A DNA stretch of 64,000 nt from Cellvibrio sp. PSBB006 (GTDB taxonomy: Bacteria; Pseudomonadota; Gammaproteobacteria; Pseudomonadales; Cellvibrionaceae), in NCBI RefSeq assembly GCF_002162135.1, contig NZ_CP021382.1:2050001-2114000 (forward strand), in the 5' to 3' direction. Below, one piece after another: positions 26,153 through 31,504 of the stretch (position 1 is its first letter; the number at the start of each line of letters is the position of its first letter). The notes under the pieces are model-generated. The model did no database searches and was not told the DNA's origin. It saw only the letters and a list, made by a program, of their open reading frames with translations. Position numbers and translations under genes: made by a program.

Positions 26153-26704
26153 TTATTGACCACTCACGGGTTTGATATTGCCGCAATCGGTGGATAGCCA
26201 CTTACCACTTTGGGTCATAGCCATTTGCTCAGTTTTGCCATTGACCTCTGTAACAAAGGTCGATTTTCCGGTGTAGGCTTTTGGCGAACTAAACGTAATT
26301 TCTCCCGTACCGCTTGAGGGCGGATTACCGGCACAACTGAATTTGATCTTGAATGTATGTTTGGTTTGTTCAAGGATCTCTTGCTGGCAATCTTCATCCT
26401 GTTGGGGGAGATCGCCGCGATCAATATCTGCCTGTGTAACACACATCTTGACGGAGGTGCCGTCTTCTCCGATGCCAATGCCGTAGGAGGACATCATGCT
26501 TTCCATCATCTTGCGTTCTTCGGGTGACATATTGGCCAGTTGTTCTTGCATTTTTTTCATGGCTGCTTCCATTTCACCGCTGGGGTTGGTCATGGTGAAT
26601 TTGTGTTCCCATAAGCCGGGTGTCATGTCGATTTTTACAGCGAGCGCTGGTGTGCTTATTGCACAACCAAGTAATAATGCGATGCAGGTTTTATATGTTT
26701 TCAT
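26153..26704 (-). CDS. DUF3617 family secreted protein
   Basis: 183-residue protein with a signal peptide (ALLLGCAISTPALA). The mature part starts VKIDMTPGLWEHKFTM, typical of DUF3617. It has a Met/Glu-rich helix (about 45-70) and four cysteines in the second half (MCVTQ, EDCQQE, FSCAGN, TDCGN) that could form two disulfides in the periplasm. Function unknown. It is separated from the GH3 gene by more than 270 bases and a palindromic element, so there is no evidence of an operon. Confidence 0.85.
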   Translation of the reverse strand: MKTYKTCIALLLGCAISTPALAVKIDMTPGLWEHKFTMTNPSGEMEAAMKKMQEQLANMSPEERKMMESMMSSYGIGIGEDGTSVKMCVTQADIDRGDLPQQDEDCQQEILEQTKHTFKIKFSCAGNPPSSGTGEITFSSPKAYTGKSTFVTEVNGKTEQMAMTQSGKWLSTDCGNIKPVSGQ

Positions 26705-26818
26705 GGTGTCGTCCGTGTGGGTTGTTGGGGAGATAACGCAGGGTTTAAAGCGGCTTTGATGCTAGTACAGTTTTTTGGTGGGGTAAAGTGGGGATGAAAA
26801 AGGGGAGCTCTAGAATCC

Positions 26819-26924
26819 GTTTGTCATTAGGCCTGTTATTTCGAAAACGCATACATACATCCCTGTAGCTCCTTCAAGTCGTCCCTGACTTGAAGGTTTC
26901 GAAATAACAGGCCTAACGCCAAAC
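26819..26924. repeat. Palindromic element, copy 1 (conserved core, private arms)
   Basis: Outer arms of 28 bases at 26819-26846 and 26897-26924 pair with two mismatches (shared part AGGCCTGTTATTTCGAAA). Read on the minus strand, the interior has a 10-bp hairpin (CCTTCAAGTC, loop AGGGAC) followed by AGCTACAGGGATGTATGTATG. That core is shared with the elements at 30215-30315 and 30500-30654, whereas the arms are not. It lies 55 bases downstream of the GH3 stop and could also end that transcript. Confidence 0.85.
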
Positions 26925-26978
26925 TCGCATTGCGGTAACAGCACGCTTGTTACTATCTATCCTGTATTTGTAGCATCT

Positions 26979-29900
26979 TTATTCCTGCAAGAGTTTCAGC
27001 AGTGTTGGTTCCATGGCTTTGGCCCAGGTGGCGTAGCTGCTTTCATTCAGGTGTAACAAATCTGGCATGACTGAGCGTGATAGGGTGCCGTCGTCGGTCA
27101 GGAAATGGTCGTTGATGTTCAGGTAAAAGATGTGTTGATTGTCGGCATAGGTTTTGATGATGTCGTTGATGCGGTTGTTGATCTGGCGCATTTCGGCATC
27201 GGGTTTTTCTTCGCGCGGGAATATGCCTAGCAGCAAAATCCTGGTTTCGGGCAAACGCGTGCGCAGTTCTTGCAAAACGGTTTTGATACCGGTGGCCGTG
27301 TATTGTGGTTGCGCTAAACGATGGCCGGTGTTGTTGGTGCCGATCATCAGCACCGCCACCTTGGGATTAATACCGTCTACTTCGCCGTGTTGTAAACGCC
27401 ATAAGACATTTTCAGTGCGGTCACCGCCGTAGCCGAGGTTCACGGCGTTGCGGTCGGCGTAATATTCCTGCCAAACGGTGTTGCCTTCGTTTTCCCAACC
27501 TTGGGTGATGGAGTCGCCAATCATCAGCAAATCTACATTGCCCTGCTGGATACGTTGCAATTTTTCTTTATGGCGTGGCTCCCACCAGTCGCGCGCCCAG
27601 AATTCGTTGAGCATGGACGGCGTTACCGCAACGGTTTTGTAATCCGGGCAGGTGGCATTGGGCGTGCCGTTTTTCAGGAATTGGACGTTGGCGATGGCCA
27701 GTTCGCCGGCGCCGCCGGTTTCCAGTGCGAAGGGTAAAGTCACCGCGCTGAAGTCGTCACCCTCCTGCGCAAAACAGGACAAAGGCAGACGGATGTTTTG
27801 CCAGCCTTTTCCAGCCATGGCAAATGCCTGCTCGGTGAACGGCACTTTGCGTTTGCATTGCTCGCCGCATTGCAAACGGAAATTCACACCACCCTTGGCC
27901 AGCTCAATCACATTCATATCCAGTGATAAAACGCCGTTTTTCAGATGCTCGCGCAAGTCCAGCGGTTTGCCGCCTTCGAGGGTGAGGCCCGCGCTCCAGG
28001 TGTTTTTCCAGGTTAAGGTCAGCGCGTCTTCCTGCACATCTTTATCGCTGGTTCTGATCACCACACTGCCATCAGGCAAGGCTGCGTATGCACCGCTGAG
28101 GATTTGATTACGTTCATGGTTGTTGAAGAAAACATTCCAGGGCTGCAGCGGACGGCCTACATAAAATTTAATATCACCGGCTTTACCGGTTGCCACATCC
28201 GCCACTTTTTCCGGCAGGGTTTTCGGCCCGGTTTTTCCGGAGGCATAGGTCAAACCATAACCGTAGGCGAACAGCGGATCATAATCCGGATGATGCGAAT
28301 TCAATTGCGCCTGCAGCGGTAATTTCGGCCAGGAAAATGTCAGCGTACCTTTGAAGTCGTGGTTGGCCGAACCGTCTGCCTTGGCGATCAACACATCAGC
28401 CACACCCGCGCCCTCGGTGCCCGGCAACCAGGCCGCTACAAACGCGTCGGATGCATTCAATTCAGGATTCACCCACAGGGGGCGGCCGGAGATAAATACC
28501 GAGACCACGGGAACATTTTTAGCTTTTAATGATTTCAGCAAAGCGAGATTGGTTTTGGTCACCGGTTCAAATTCCAGCGTTCCCAGATCACCCTGTCCTT
28601 CTGCATATGGATCTTCACCGAACACAACAATGGCTACATCCGGCTTGGTGGTGTAACTGCCATCAGCTGATAACACCGCGTTGCCGCCTGCATTTTCAAC
28701 TGCCGTTTTGATTCCGGCATAAATGGAGGTCGCACCCGGAAAACTGGCGTTGGTATTACCGGTTCCTTGCCAGCTCACACTCCAACCGCCGGATTGTTTA
28801 CCGATGTTGTCGGCACCATCACCGGCGACCAGTACTGTTTGCTGCGGCTTGATCGGCAACACGCGATTGTGGTTTTTTAACAGCACCAGACTTTCGCGCA
28901 CCGCCTGCCGGGCGATAGCCCGATGTTCCGGATGGCCGATAATATTTTCGCTGCCGGCCAGTTCGCGCTCGGAAGGTTTTTTATCAAACAAACCCGCGCG
29001 CACTTTAACGCGCAAGATACGACGCACGGCATCGTCCAGGCGCGCCGCGCTGATTTCACCGGATTTCACTTGCGCCAATGTATTTTCATACATCGGTTTC
29101 CAATCGTAAGGCACCATTACCAGATCAACGCCGGCGTTAATCGCTTGTGCGCAGGAATCATTCGTACAACCCGGTACCTGGCCGTGACCATTCCAATCAC
29201 CTACAACAAAGCCATCAAAACCCATGCGATTTTTCAGTACATCGGTCAGCAGATATTGATTGCCGTGCATCTTCTCGCCATTCCAGGCAGAGAAACTTGC
29301 CATCACACTTTGCACGCCCGCAGAAAGCGCGGCGGGATAACCGGGGTTATGGATGTCAATTAACTCCTGTTCACTGATTCGCGCATCACCCTGGTCGTCT
29401 CCACCAACGGTGCCGCCATCGGCAAGGAAATGTTTTGCGGTGGCAACGACATGTTGCTCTTGCAGAAATGCCGGGGAATTTACTTGCCCCTGCAAACCTT
29501 CCACCATTGCGCGCGCATACTCCTGCACCAGCTTTGGATCTTCCGCATAACTCTCGTAGGTGCGCCCCCAGAAATCGTTTTGTGCCACAGCAATTGTCGG
29601 CGCGAAAACCCATTCAATACCAGTCGCACGAACTTCCCGCGCAGTCACTGCGCCAATCTGGCGAATCAGGTCTGGATTGTTGGTGGCACCGAGGCCAATG
29701 TTGTGCGGGAAAATCGTCGCGCCGGTGACGTTGTTGTGGCCGTGTACGGCGTCGGTGCCCCAGATAACCGGAATGGCGACTTTGCCATCGCTGGTGTCCA
29801 TGGAGGCGTTGTAGAGGGTGTCGGCAAGTGCGAGCCAGTCTTTCGGTTTTGCATTGGCAATACGGTTGGGCATGGAGCCGCCGCCGTTGAGTACTGAGCC

Positions 29901-30167
29901 CAGATGATATTTTTTGATGTCGTCGGGCGTAACGGCCTGGATTTCGCCTTGCATGATCTGGCCGACTTTTTCTTCGAGGGTCATGCGGGAGAGGAGTTGC
30001 TCGACGTGTTGTTCGGTGGTGACATCACTGACGGGGCTTTCGAGTTTTGGCCAGCCTTCGATGCCGACTTTTTGCGTTACGGGTGGGGTAACGTCCTGGT
30101 TGGAGCAGCTTGTCAGGGTGATTAACAAGGCGCTAAACAACGTTAGTTTTAGTGAGGGTTTTTTCAT
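26979..30167 (-). CDS. GH3 beta-glucosidase/glucan exohydrolase lipoprotein with ExoP domain, fused to an SGNH esterase
   Basis: 1062-residue predicted lipoprotein (lipobox LTSC near residue 21). The GH3 catalytic region covers about 50-620, with candidate nucleophile Asp324 in GFDGFVVGDWNG. The sequence resembles marine ExoP-type beta-glucan exohydrolases. An ExoP galactose-binding-like domain lies at about 660-830. A C-terminal SGNH/GDSL hydrolase domain (about 845-1060) carries GDSITQGW with Ser886, GYGGDRTEN, MIGTNNTG and DLLHLNE, so all four catalytic blocks are present. The likely roles are removal of terminal glucose from beta-glucan or xyloglucan oligosaccharides, and ester removal (perhaps acetyl) from the same substrates. 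The start is supported by AGAAGG about 10 bases upstream. Palindromic elements lie on both sides of the gene. The esterase substrate is inferred. Confidence 0.92.
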   Translation of the reverse strand: MKKPSLKLTLFSALLITLTSCSNQDVTPPVTQKVGIEGWPKLESPVSDVTTEQHVEQLLSRMTLEEKVGQIMQGEIQAVTPDDIKKYHLGSVLNGGGSMPNRIANAKPKDWLALADTLYNASMDTSDGKVAIPVIWGTDAVHGHNNVTGATIFPHNIGLGATNNPDLIRQIGAVTAREVRATGIEWVFAPTIAVAQNDFWGRTYESYAEDPKLVQEYARAMVEGLQGQVNSPAFLQEQHVVATAKHFLADGGTVGGDDQGDARISEQELIDIHNPGYPAALSAGVQSVMASFSAWNGEKMHGNQYLLTDVLKNRMGFDGFVVGDWNGHGQVPGCTNDSCAQAINAGVDLVMVPYDWKPMYENTLAQVKSGEISAARLDDAVRRILRVKVRAGLFDKKPSERELAGSENIIGHPEHRAIARQAVRESLVLLKNHNRVLPIKPQQTVLVAGDGADNIGKQSGGWSVSWQGTGNTNASFPGATSIYAGIKTAVENAGGNAVLSADGSYTTKPDVAIVVFGEDPYAEGQGDLGTLEFEPVTKTNLALLKSLKAKNVPVVSVFISGRPLWVNPELNASDAFVAAWLPGTEGAGVADVLIAKADGSANHDFKGTLTFSWPKLPLQAQLNSHHPDYDPLFAYGYGLTYASGKTGPKTLPEKVADVATGKAGDIKFYVGRPLQPWNVFFNNHERNQILSGAYAALPDGSVVIRTSDKDVQEDALTLTWKNTWSAGLTLEGGKPLDLREHLKNGVLSLDMNVIELAKGGVNFRLQCGEQCKRKVPFTEQAFAMAGKGWQNIRLPLSCFAQEGDDFSAVTLPFALETGGAGELAIANVQFLKNGTPNATCPDYKTVAVTPSMLNEFWARDWWEPRHKEKLQRIQQGNVDLLMIGDSITQGWENEGNTVWQEYYADRNAVNLGYGGDRTENVLWRLQHGEVDGINPKVAVLMIGTNNTGHRLAQPQYTATGIKTVLQELRTRLPETRILLLGIFPREEKPDAEMRQINNRINDIIKTYADNQHIFYLNINDHFLTDDGTLSRSVMPDLLHLNESSYATWAKAMEPTLLKLLQE

Positions 30168-30214
30168 GTTTTTTTACCTTCTTTTTTAGATTTTTTACTA
30201 GTGCGAGTGGGTGG

Positions 30215-30315
30215 GGAGTTGGGTAGAGGGGGGCGAGACGCGCCGTAAATACTTCCTTGTAGGCTCAGCAGCGGCGTCCTGCCGCTGATGGTCTCGCCCC
30301 CCTCTACCCAACTCC
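30215..30315. repeat. Palindromic element, copy 2, in the 5' leader of the GH3 gene
   Basis: Perfect 25-base outer arms at 30215-30239 and 30291-30315 (GGAGTTGGGTAGAGG... ending GAGAC). On the minus strand the interior reads CATCA, a 7-bp hairpin (CAGCGGC, loop AGGAC), then GCCTACAAGGAAGTATTTAC and GGCGC. This interior matches the other two elements while the arms do not. It begins 48 bases upstream of the GH3 start codon, so it may be transcribed in the GH3 leader. Confidence 0.88.
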
Positions 30316-30499
30316 TGCATCACGACTGAGGATTCTTTCGGAAGGTGGTTTTCTATTTACTCACCGGGAATGAAAAATCGTCGCGGAATTAAATTTAAGA
30401 ATCTGCTTACTAAAAAGTATCGTTTGTACCAGACAAAACTAAAAGCTCAATTAAAAAAACTAAACACTTTTGTCTCATTTAGGACCAAGGCGGTGGGGA

Positions 30500-30654
30500 G
30501 AGTGATCGGTTGTTGCTTGTGAGACCATCACCCGCATGGACGACCCACATGGATGTGGGAAGTTTCCCGAAGCGCCGGGAGCGCGTAGGGATGCGGGTGT
30601 TGTGCCTACAGGGATGTATTCACGGCGTGTCTCACAAGCAACAACCGATCACTC
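30500..30654. repeat. Palindromic element, copy 3, directly after the fumarylacetoacetase-family gene
   Basis: Perfect 26-base outer arms at 30500-30525 and 30629-30654 (GAGTGATCGGTTGTTGC... ending GAGAC). On the plus strand the interior begins CATCACCCGCATGGACG and has nested hairpins (CCCACATGGATGTGGG; ACCCGCAT pairing ATGCGGGT). It ends GCCTACAGGGATGTATTCAC and GGCGT. The core is shared with copies 1 and 2. The right arm ends 1 base before the stop codon (30656-30658) of the fumarylacetoacetase-family gene on the minus strand. Confidence 0.88.
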
Positions 30655-30655
30655 A

Positions 30656-31504
30656 CTACAATCCAAAATCAACAACCACCTGTTTTTGAACCCCCATCCC
30701 CTCAATCCCCAATTCCATCACATCACCAACATTCAAATAAACCGGCGGCTTTTGCCCCAGTCCTACGCCCGGCGGTGTACCGGTGGAGATGACATCGCCC
30801 GGTTGCAAACTCATAAACTGACTCAGGTAGTGAACCAAAAATGCCGGGCCGAAGACCATTTGGTTGGTTGAGCCGTTTTGAAAGGTTTTGCCGTTCACCT
30901 TTAACCACAAGTTCAAATTTAACGGATCAGGCACTTCATCTTTTGTCACCAGGTAAGGGCCAAGCGGGCCAAAGCTATCACAACCTTTCCCCTTATCCCA
31001 CTGCCCACCACGTTCCAGTTGAAACTCGCGCTCGGACACATCGTTAATCACGCAATAACCGGCGATGTAATCCATCGCGTCACTTTCTTCAACATAGCTG
31101 GTGTGTTTGCCGATCACGATGCCCAGTTCGACCTCCCAATCCAGTTTAGTCGAATTGCGCGGTTTAATAACAGGATCGTTGGGTCCGGTGATGGCGCTGG
31201 TGGCCTTCATGAAGACGACGGGCTCCGCCGGAACGGCAAGGCCGGATTCGGCGGCGTGGTCAGCGTAATTTAAACCTATGCAGATAAATTTACCGACCTG
31301 GTTTACGCAGGGGCCGAGGCGCAGGTTTTTATCAACAAGTGGCAAACTTTCAATATCAAGCGCCGCCAGCTGCGCCAAAATCTCGGCAGAGATTGTTTTG
31401 CCATTCACATCGTCGATGATTCCGGAAAGGTCACGCACTTGACCTTGTGCATCCAGAAGTCCCGGACGCTCCTGCCCCGGTGTACCGTAGCGCAATAATT
31501 TCAT
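30656..31504 (-). CDS. 2,4-diketo-3-deoxy-L-fuconate hydrolase (fumarylacetoacetate hydrolase family)
   Basis: Predicted last step of the fucose pathway: hydrolysis of 2,4-diketo-3-deoxy-L-fuconate to pyruvate and L-lactate. Family motifs are clear: FICIGLNYADHAAES, PVVFMKATSAITGPND, the metal-binding DWEVELGIVIGKH, YCVINDVSERE and ISTGTPPGVGLG. The open frame starts at 31516. The ATG at 31504 (MKLLRYG) is preferred because the protein then begins like family members, giving 282 residues. It is the last gene of a five-gene operon. A mobile-looking repeat lies between it and the SDR gene, and a palindromic element follows its stop. The specific substrate is assigned from the neighbouring genes. 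Confidence 0.88.
   Translation of the reverse strand: MKLLRYGTPGQERPGLLDAQGQVRDLSGIIDDVNGKTISAEILAQLAALDIESLPLVDKNLRLGPCVNQVGKFICIGLNYADHAAESGLAVPAEPVVFMKATSAITGPNDPVIKPRNSTKLDWEVELGIVIGKHTSYVEESDAMDYIAGYCVINDVSEREFQLERGGQWDKGKGCDSFGPLGPYLVTKDEVPDPLNLNLWLKVNGKTFQNGSTNQMVFGPAFLVHYLSQFMSLQPGDVISTGTPPGVGLGQKPPVYLNVGDVMELGIEGMGVQKQVVVDFGL

Follow-up and report, generated by a model that had tools for sequence, protein, structure and literature searches.

YPAL (RU-2) is described from Yersinia as a small mobile repeat with filled and empty sites, target duplications of 3-26 bp and targets near dyad symmetry, which is reportedly expressed with upstream genes and perhaps affects transcript stability (PMC2229807); this literature associates it with mobility and the stability of mRNA and draws no link to CsrA. 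TwoAYGGAY (RF01731) has been proposed as a CsrA-binding RNA with a poorly conserved external stem (PMC4333381), and Ysr224 (RF02770) is a temperature-responsive small RNA (sRNA) among the 20 most prevalent annotated sRNAs (PMC9029176). The present analysis concerns three palindromic elements in a stretch of 64,000 nucleotides from Cellvibrio sp. PSBB006 (contig NZ_CP021382.1, positions 2,050,001 to 2,114,000 of the forward strand; "the window"), located at positions 26819..26924 (copy 1), 30215..30315 (copy 2) and 30500..30654 (copy 3) of the window. They belong to a large family of dispersed repeats in which a long outer stem closes over two small hairpins with loops mostly of the type ANGGAN; judged from sequence, these repeats are, with moderate confidence, regarded as probably mobile RNA elements that bind CsrA/Rsm proteins. 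The first-pass annotation had recognised no name for them; YPAL/RU-2, TwoAYGGAY and Ysr224 are now identified as relatives, and the family is considered a diverged branch of the YPAL/TwoAYGGAY kind, not wholly new. New are the unification of these names, the scale of the family, the cause of its diverging arms and the bias towards divergent pairs; among the accessible literature no paper was found that joins YPAL with CsrA, TwoAYGGAY or Ysr224 (PMC7657543 holds TwoAYGGAY and CsrA).

With YPAL the family shares the core: the printed letters of RU-2 hold CGAGCCTACATGGATGTATTTACGGCGTC and the GCGCCAAGGATGGCGC hairpin (PMC2759123), and the viral-contig locus L155, near-identical to RU-2 over its length, is matched at 61 bits (E 1e-13) by R1, a covariance model built from 17 copies of the PSBB006 genome alone. 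YPAL differs in its conserved sequence, its length of ~168 bp and its reported target duplications, whereas the family described here measures ~105 bp without insert, shows no direct repeats and possesses arms unlike those of YPAL that are mostly private to each copy (copy-1 subfamily excepted, see below). TwoAYGGAY likewise consists of two hairpins with A-Y-GGA-Y loops inside an outer stem; here, the N positions are wider than Y, and copy 2 has one 5-base loop. Four RF01731 matches at E ≤0.001 were obtained in the PSBB006 genome, all on family copies (36.3-37.8 bits, under the gathering score of 43), and this is the nearest bacterial match on the strand that carries the GGA loops; the gathering score is reached by relatives in genome G009 and at locus L350 (43.9 bits). 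G009, which has no R1 match and 29 TwoAYGGAY matches, seems to hold another branch of the family; no RF01731 match was present in four of the ten genomes searched. Within 26700-30800 of the window TwoAYGGAY was absent at E ≤10 and surfaced only with other copies, and at gathering score Rfam gave nothing in the window and only a TPP riboswitch in 13 other loci. Matches to microRNA families, some of them above the TwoAYGGAY score, were taken as chance fits to long stems.

Ysr224 matches the antisense of the core (locus L002: 35.8 bits, E 1.2e-5; the YPAL copy of L155: 133.9 bits; scanned PSBB006 copies stay below the gathering score of 70). The model RF02770 seems to describe the antisense of a widespread repeat, whose dispersed nature may explain the prevalence of Ysr224, its many sRNA annotations perhaps being repeat copies. 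The sponge RNAs CsrB/CsrC and RsmX/Y/Z resemble the family in their several GGA hairpin loops per RNA and in the mode of action proposed below, and differ in being few defined sRNA genes, whereas the family is a dispersed repeat; RsmZ (RF00166) was found in none of ten genomes, other Csr/Rsm sRNA families not having been searched genome-wide. REP, REPIN and TIRYT elements are also short palindromic intergenic repeats, often in inverted pairs; the present elements differ from them by two hairpins within a long outer stem and were not located beside the Y1 transposase genes found.

Size and distribution of the family

A core pattern was present at 38 places in the 5.26-Mb single-contig genome of PSBB006 at ≤3 mismatches (reversed control: 0), with copy 1 being too diverged for this pattern; R1 gave 113 matches at E ≤0.001 (150 of 1768 candidates scored). 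Two subfamilies, GAGACC...GGCGTGTCTC and GAAACCC...CGCGTTTTC, are distinguishable in this genome. R1 matches occurred in 20 of 21 genomes of the genus (exception: G009) and in 75 of 369 genomes sampled from the class, PSBB006 included; for the class survey stricter filters were applied and at most ten candidates were scored per genome. With a longer DNA pattern, at least 120 stretches were recovered from named genomes; titles among the 80 matches listed comprise Cellvibrio, Microbulbifer, Marinobacter, Stenotrophomonas, Luteimonas, Thermomonas, Halopseudomonas, Rheinheimera, Ectothiorhodospiraceae and others, and are nearly all from Gammaproteobacteria (exceptions: L078, a Rhodobacteraceae title, and a few labelled no more closely than Proteobacteria or Pseudomonadota). 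Fourteen named genomes picked from the pattern matches contained 14 to 122 R1 matches apiece, and 76, 66 and 81 element matches were counted in G015, G043 and G045, respectively. Viral contigs yielded one exact-match copy, L155. In the PSBB006 genome, nine copies, with pairs among them, were observed inside 37 kb (317694-354955).

Architecture, covariation and strand-specific pairing

In the 30 PSBB006 copies read first, outer arms of 24-29 bp (21 in L020) with 0-2 mismatches enclose a core of 51-52 nt, which lengthens to 92-103 nt in copies with a hairpin-bearing insert in hairpin 1. The alignment A1 (17 of these 30 loci, standard-length copies of one subfamily) exhibits standard pairs in 95.8% of the pair cells versus 69.3% when shuffled, and two-sided changes at 24 of 28 outer-arm pairs; hairpin 2 is invariant at all six of its pairs in A1 and hence uninformative there, and four of the six vary in an alignment of 102 matches from 79 loci of other genomes. 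The latter alignment, which had been fitted to the structure, is paired to 94.8% (58.9% shuffled; 35-44% in slid versions), with two-sided change at 41 of 43 pairs. This covariation supports the outer stem as well as both hairpins. In addition, the arms show a weak positional consensus, e.g. G at position -17 in 84% of 31 PSBB006 copies.

The imperfect arm pairs are informative about the strand and the type of nucleic acid that is under selection. On the GGA strand, G·U was counted 329 times versus 51 for A·C in 8119 arm pairs of 289 distinct elements, many of which are related; the score used for finding the arms treats both alike. Purine-purine mismatches (161) versus pyrimidine-pyrimidine mismatches (25) were counted in the same elements. 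The G·U to A·C ratio within the inner 26 pairs amounted to 19:0 in PSBB006 (31 copies), 47:1 in the genus, 146:20 in the genome_contigs loci, 42:7 in Stenotrophomonas and 45:0 in the remaining loci; 12 further PSBB006 copies gave 7:1. About equal numbers of G·U and A·C would be expected under selection for pairing in DNA, or without any such selection. The GGA-loop strand thus appears to be under pairing selection as RNA, barring a strong transcription-linked mutation bias that mimics it; such a bias would itself need transcription of this strand.

GGA hairpin loops and a proposed relation to CsrA

Hairpin 2 corresponds to UAC-ANGGAN-GUA; its stem is TAC/GTA in 197 cases, CCC/GGG in 76 and TCC/GGA in 12, with four singletons of which two are unpaired (the search expression required GGA and left the N positions free). 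Its sequence UACANGGANGUA nearly equals the consensus RUACARGGAUGU that was selected for CsrA by systematic evolution of ligands by exponential enrichment (SELEX), mostly as hexaloops with few pairs; ANGGAN is bound by RsmE (PMC7652899) and, as hexaloops, by RsmN (PMC3791407). CsrA is a homodimer, and motifs of this kind are generally found in twos (PMC4333381). Of 119 matches found by hairpin 2 alone, 81 have a hairpin 1 with a 4-bp stem and an ANGGAN hexaloop, compared with 0-2 in 200 shuffles, and GGA is present at hairpin 1 in 99-100 of the 102 aligned matches (R1 itself models that loop). The elements therefore have the two or more ANGGAN/GGA hairpin loops by which CsrA/Rsm-binding RNAs are recognised, their two GGAs being spaced by 23 nt in A1; nested inserts add further GGA hairpins in PSBB006 and in Stenotrophomonas.

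Two CsrA gene matches are encoded by the PSBB006 genome, and 313 of the 369 class genomes have at least one. Elements were present in 70 of 313 genomes with CsrA versus 5 of 56 without (Fisher p 0.019), and among good assemblies in 62 of 280 versus 1 of 34 (Fisher p 0.0056); this association is weak evidence, since genome size and lineage were not controlled.

Taken as a CsrA/Rsm-binding RNA element, dispersed by former or current mobility, the repeat would act as follows. The transcript would fold into a long outer stem that closes a junction of two small hairpins with ANGGAN-type loops; the distance of 23 nt between the two GGAs of standard copies is the arrangement expected of a dual CsrA/RsmA site. 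The outer stem would be selected mainly for pairing on the GGA strand, so that arm sequences could drift via G·U intermediates, double changes and the exchange of inner arm and core between copies, leaving old copies with private arms and young subfamilies with arms that are still shared. By binding CsrA/Rsm dimers, the copies would either form a multitude of small sinks for CsrA or provide local CsrA sites within the host transcript.

Several observations weigh against this interpretation. The strict hairpin-1 test is failed by 38 of the 119 hairpin-2 matches (by eye, about 30 of these have GGA at hairpin 1 with a shorter stem or another loop size), and the 5-base hairpin-1 loop of copy 2 deviates from the ANGGAN hexaloop. 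The hairpins selected by SELEX for CsrA mostly have ≤4 contiguous pairs, and a very stable structure might be unfavourable (PMC7652899). Five of the 75 element-bearing genomes lack a detected CsrA gene (G116, G177, G208 and G451 are incomplete, G304 is 98% complete). Between 26700 and 30800 of the window, no sigma-70-type promoter-like site was found versus 2.9 expected, and the annotation of Ysr224 is for the strand that lacks GGA loops. The orientation of the copies relative to neighbouring genes shows no clear preference, which is odd for a purely cis-acting mRNA site. Finally, transcription-linked C-to-T change on the sense strand could explain part of the G·U excess.

The three copies in the window

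The palindromes annotated in the first pass proved to be real and not due to chance. Their arms are 93-100% complementary; the core word CTACAGGGATGTATTCACG occurs three times in the window at ≤3 mismatches (strands -, -, +; expected 0.00); and the GGA strand folds more stably than shuffles in copy 1 (z -11.3) and copy 2 (z -10.4), with z -3.8 for copy 3 folded after a cut at 30640. The GGA-bearing sense strand is the minus strand for copies 1 and 2 and the plus strand for copy 3. Copy 1 is a member of a different subfamily, and the hairpin-1 loop of copy 2 comprises 5 nt (AGGAC) and not 6. The features are:

26819..26924, minus strand: copy 1, whole element; subfamily GAAACC...GCGTTTTC, arms common to eight other copies of the genome; flanked by the GH3 gene stop and the start of a DUF3617 gene
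26819..26846, minus strand: copy 1 arm (3' on the sense strand), 28 nt, 93% complementary to its partner, two mismatches
26897..26924, minus strand: copy 1 arm (5' on the sense strand), 28 nt
26871..26896, minus strand: copy 1 hairpin 1, sense loop AGGGAC at 26881-26886
26856..26867, minus strand: copy 1 hairpin 2, sense UAC-AGGGAU-GUA, loop at 26859-26864
30215..30315, minus strand: copy 2, whole element; in its sense orientation upstream of the GH3 gene start (30167)
30215..30239, minus strand: copy 2 private arm (3' on the sense strand), 25 nt, perfect complement
30291..30315, minus strand: copy 2 private arm (5' on the sense strand), 25 nt, perfect complement
30270..30286, minus strand: copy 2 hairpin 1, loop of 5 bases (AGGAC) at 30276-30280
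30250..30261, minus strand: copy 2 hairpin 2, sense UAC-AAGGAA-GUA
30500..30654, plus strand: copy 3, whole element including its nested insert; makes up a divergent (-,+) pair together with copy 2
30500..30525, plus strand: copy 3 private 5' arm, 26 nt, perfect complement
30629..30654, plus strand: copy 3 private 3' arm, 26 nt, perfect complement
30526..30602, plus strand: copy 3 hairpin 1 with nested insert; extra GGA hairpins, by sequence, CCCAC-ATGGAT-GTGGG (30544-30559) and GCGC-CGGGA-GCGC (30572-30584)
30607..30618, plus strand: copy 3 hairpin 2, UAC-AGGGAU-GUA, loop at 30610-30615

The hairpin-bearing insert in hairpin 1 of copy 3 (51 nt; 30536-30591) recurs in the PSBB006 loci L006, L007, L010 and L017 (~40 nt in L017), and Stenotrophomonas copies carry a different, longer insert at the same place. 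Eight terminator-like sites were located in 26700-30800, none of them on any copy, and no T run was present among the informative positions 3' of the 3' arm, so that the elements do not resemble intrinsic terminators. The open reading frame at 26979-30167 (minus strand) combines N- and C-terminal GH3 glycosidase domains, a galactose-binding Exop_C domain and a C-terminal GDSL lipase/esterase domain in one fusion.

Paired copies, mobility and DNA- or mRNA-level alternatives

Copies less than 700 bp apart are predominantly divergent (-,+): 27 of 31 cases in the genome_contigs loci (138-566 bp apart; the other four tandem), 26 of 26 in the Stenotrophomonas loci, and 9 of 12 among 59 PSBB006 copies typed from listings (the other three convergent). 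Divergent pairs could share a promoter at their centre or represent a compound mobile unit; around such pairs in S. maltophilia, segments of ~500-570 bp recur at 70-84% identity. A fixed placement at gene ends was not seen (open reading frame calls are crude in high-GC genomes), and the only candidate for a conserved upstream promoter was a GGCAC word before some PSBB006 copies, with no consistent position elsewhere.

The pairing bias is among the features that would also suit a miniature mobile element acting at the DNA level, whose transposase reads the hairpins as single-stranded DNA and for which the CsrA-like loops are incidental or part of recognition. This explanation is judged unlikely, though it has several points in its favour: the core recurs in YPAL, a small repeat described as mobile and as having both empty and filled sites; some subfamilies have their arms in common; and the YPAL copy of L155 has a duplicated flank of 16 bases. 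However, selection on a DNA hairpin would not be expected to result in the strand-specific preference of G·U over A·C, and no excess of shared words was found as flanking direct repeats in 31 PSBB006 copies and other groups. Mobilisation by Y1 (RAYT/TIRYT) transposases was not supported: no strong copy was near any of 23 Y1 loci in seven of ten genomes (best 23.9 bits, next 17), and the element-rich genomes G015, G043 and G045 gave no Y1 match, other transposase types not having been searched. The repeat that flanks the Y1 gene in S. maltophilia L307 and L308 (GGGGTCAG...) differs in sequence from the family. As separate observations, the Y1 gene of L307 lies between 41-nt self-complementary repeats (GGGGTCAGATCCC..., 1295-1335 and 2073-2113) that resemble TIRYT repeats, and the copy of L155 (6178-6309) has the palindrome GGCCACCTGTGTGGCC on both sides, as if a small hairpin were the duplicated target.

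Selection of the stem as RNA would also suit an mRNA end stabiliser or RNase III processing stem: transcripts would be protected or cut by way of the stem, and the loops would be bound by some other protein or have no partner. The stem length of mostly 24-29 bp and the reported co-expression of YPAL with upstream genes, with a possible effect on transcript stability, fit this function; it leaves unexplained, however, why the same ANGGAN-type loop is kept on two differently stemmed hairpins while the N positions and the stems vary, and no orientation bias typical of 3' untranslated regions was detected. It is therefore considered improbable.

Divergence of the outer arms

The arm sequences of the three window copies differ from one another, as had been noted, and are private in copies 2 and 3; the claim of private arms does not extend to copy 1, as eight other places in the genome (L359-L366) match it at 90-96% over 112-131 bases with the arms shared. 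By eye, all arms are different in the 30 copies first read and in 12 further ones, the copy-1 subfamily excepted, with some still looking related (L006 with L010, L005 with L373). The copy-1 subfamily, nine copies in all, is variable at three arm positions, always with both sides changed, and the sole one-sided event is a base lost in L366. Every member has a G·U at one outer-stem place and a mismatch at another, both places being constant throughout the subfamily, as if derived from one founder. The genome of PSBB006 hence contains old-looking private copies plus a young subfamily with common arms. A comparable situation was observed in Luteimonas (G045), where one arm sequence is common to the 20 best-scoring of 81 copies; their 28-bp stem revealed six one-sided changes (all G·U) and two two-sided ones, an unpaired end position being excluded, so that these copies are regarded as a young family caught partway through divergence. 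The first-pass annotation had named two outcomes that would contradict it, namely the existence of these three copies alone and the conservation of arms with the core elsewhere: the covariance model scan revealed many copies, whereas conservation does extend from the core to the arms in the copy-1 subfamily and the 20 Luteimonas copies.

Changes in place can be followed at orthologous sites. One Stenotrophomonas site, for which 30 loci were read, could be placed in 29 of them (element 1 delimited in 14, element 2 in 18); it revealed paired changes, deletions, hybrids and hairpin inserts in the hairpin-1 loop, and the inner arm and core were wholly exchanged while the outer arms remained constant. 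Between two S. maltophilia genomes (seven orthologous loci, ten element pairs), 47 two-sided versus 6 one-sided arm differences were counted; 19 of the 47 represent one wholesale replacement, without which the ratio is 28 versus 6. For one element of L277/L301, arm identity amounts to 67% compared with 93% for the 4-kb surroundings, which points to exchange between copies besides point change. The diverging arms are thus explained by pairing selection together with exchange between copies, and shared arms in young subfamilies next to private arms in old copies are expected on these grounds. The earlier suggestion that arms coevolve under strong pairing selection is well supported by the covariation, the G·U excess and the two-sided changes.

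Alternatively, template switching in quasi-palindromes might copy mutations from arm to arm, with pairing itself being unselected. The surplus of two-sided differences at orthologous sites and the wholesale arm swaps would agree with such a process; it should not favour G·U over A·C (329:51), however, and is regarded as very improbable. Least credible is that insertion copies the flank in inverted orientation or enters a ready-made hairpin, both proposed in the first pass: many copies do have private arms, YPAL targets are reported near dyad symmetry and L155 has its duplicated small palindrome, whereas near-fixed arm length, the weak positional consensus, arm sharing in the copy-1 and Luteimonas copies and the in-place change of both arms in orthologues disfavour flank copying, insertion into existing hairpin loops was not seen for the window copies, and the few sites compared included no empty one that had a single arm or both.

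Possible implications for CsrA regulation and RNA stem evolution

The CsrA/Rsm-binding element proposed here unites three things that have been named separately, a mobile repeat of Yersinia, an sRNA family of the same genus and an RNA motif predicted to bind CsrA, and offers a testable role for hundreds of unexplained palindromes. The arms also present a clean natural example of how long RNA stems evolve by way of G·U intermediates and by exchange between copies. Should CsrA be bound by the copies, the free level of a global regulator would be set by a repeat that is either selfish or domesticated. In its most far-reaching form, which is put forward only tentatively, a mobile element of Gammaproteobacteria carries a high-affinity CsrA/RsmA-binding RNA; more than 100 copies in some genomes, together with their GGA-bearing inserts, might then constitute a distributed sink that shifts or buffers the regulator, replacing or adding to RNAs of the CsrB/RsmZ type.

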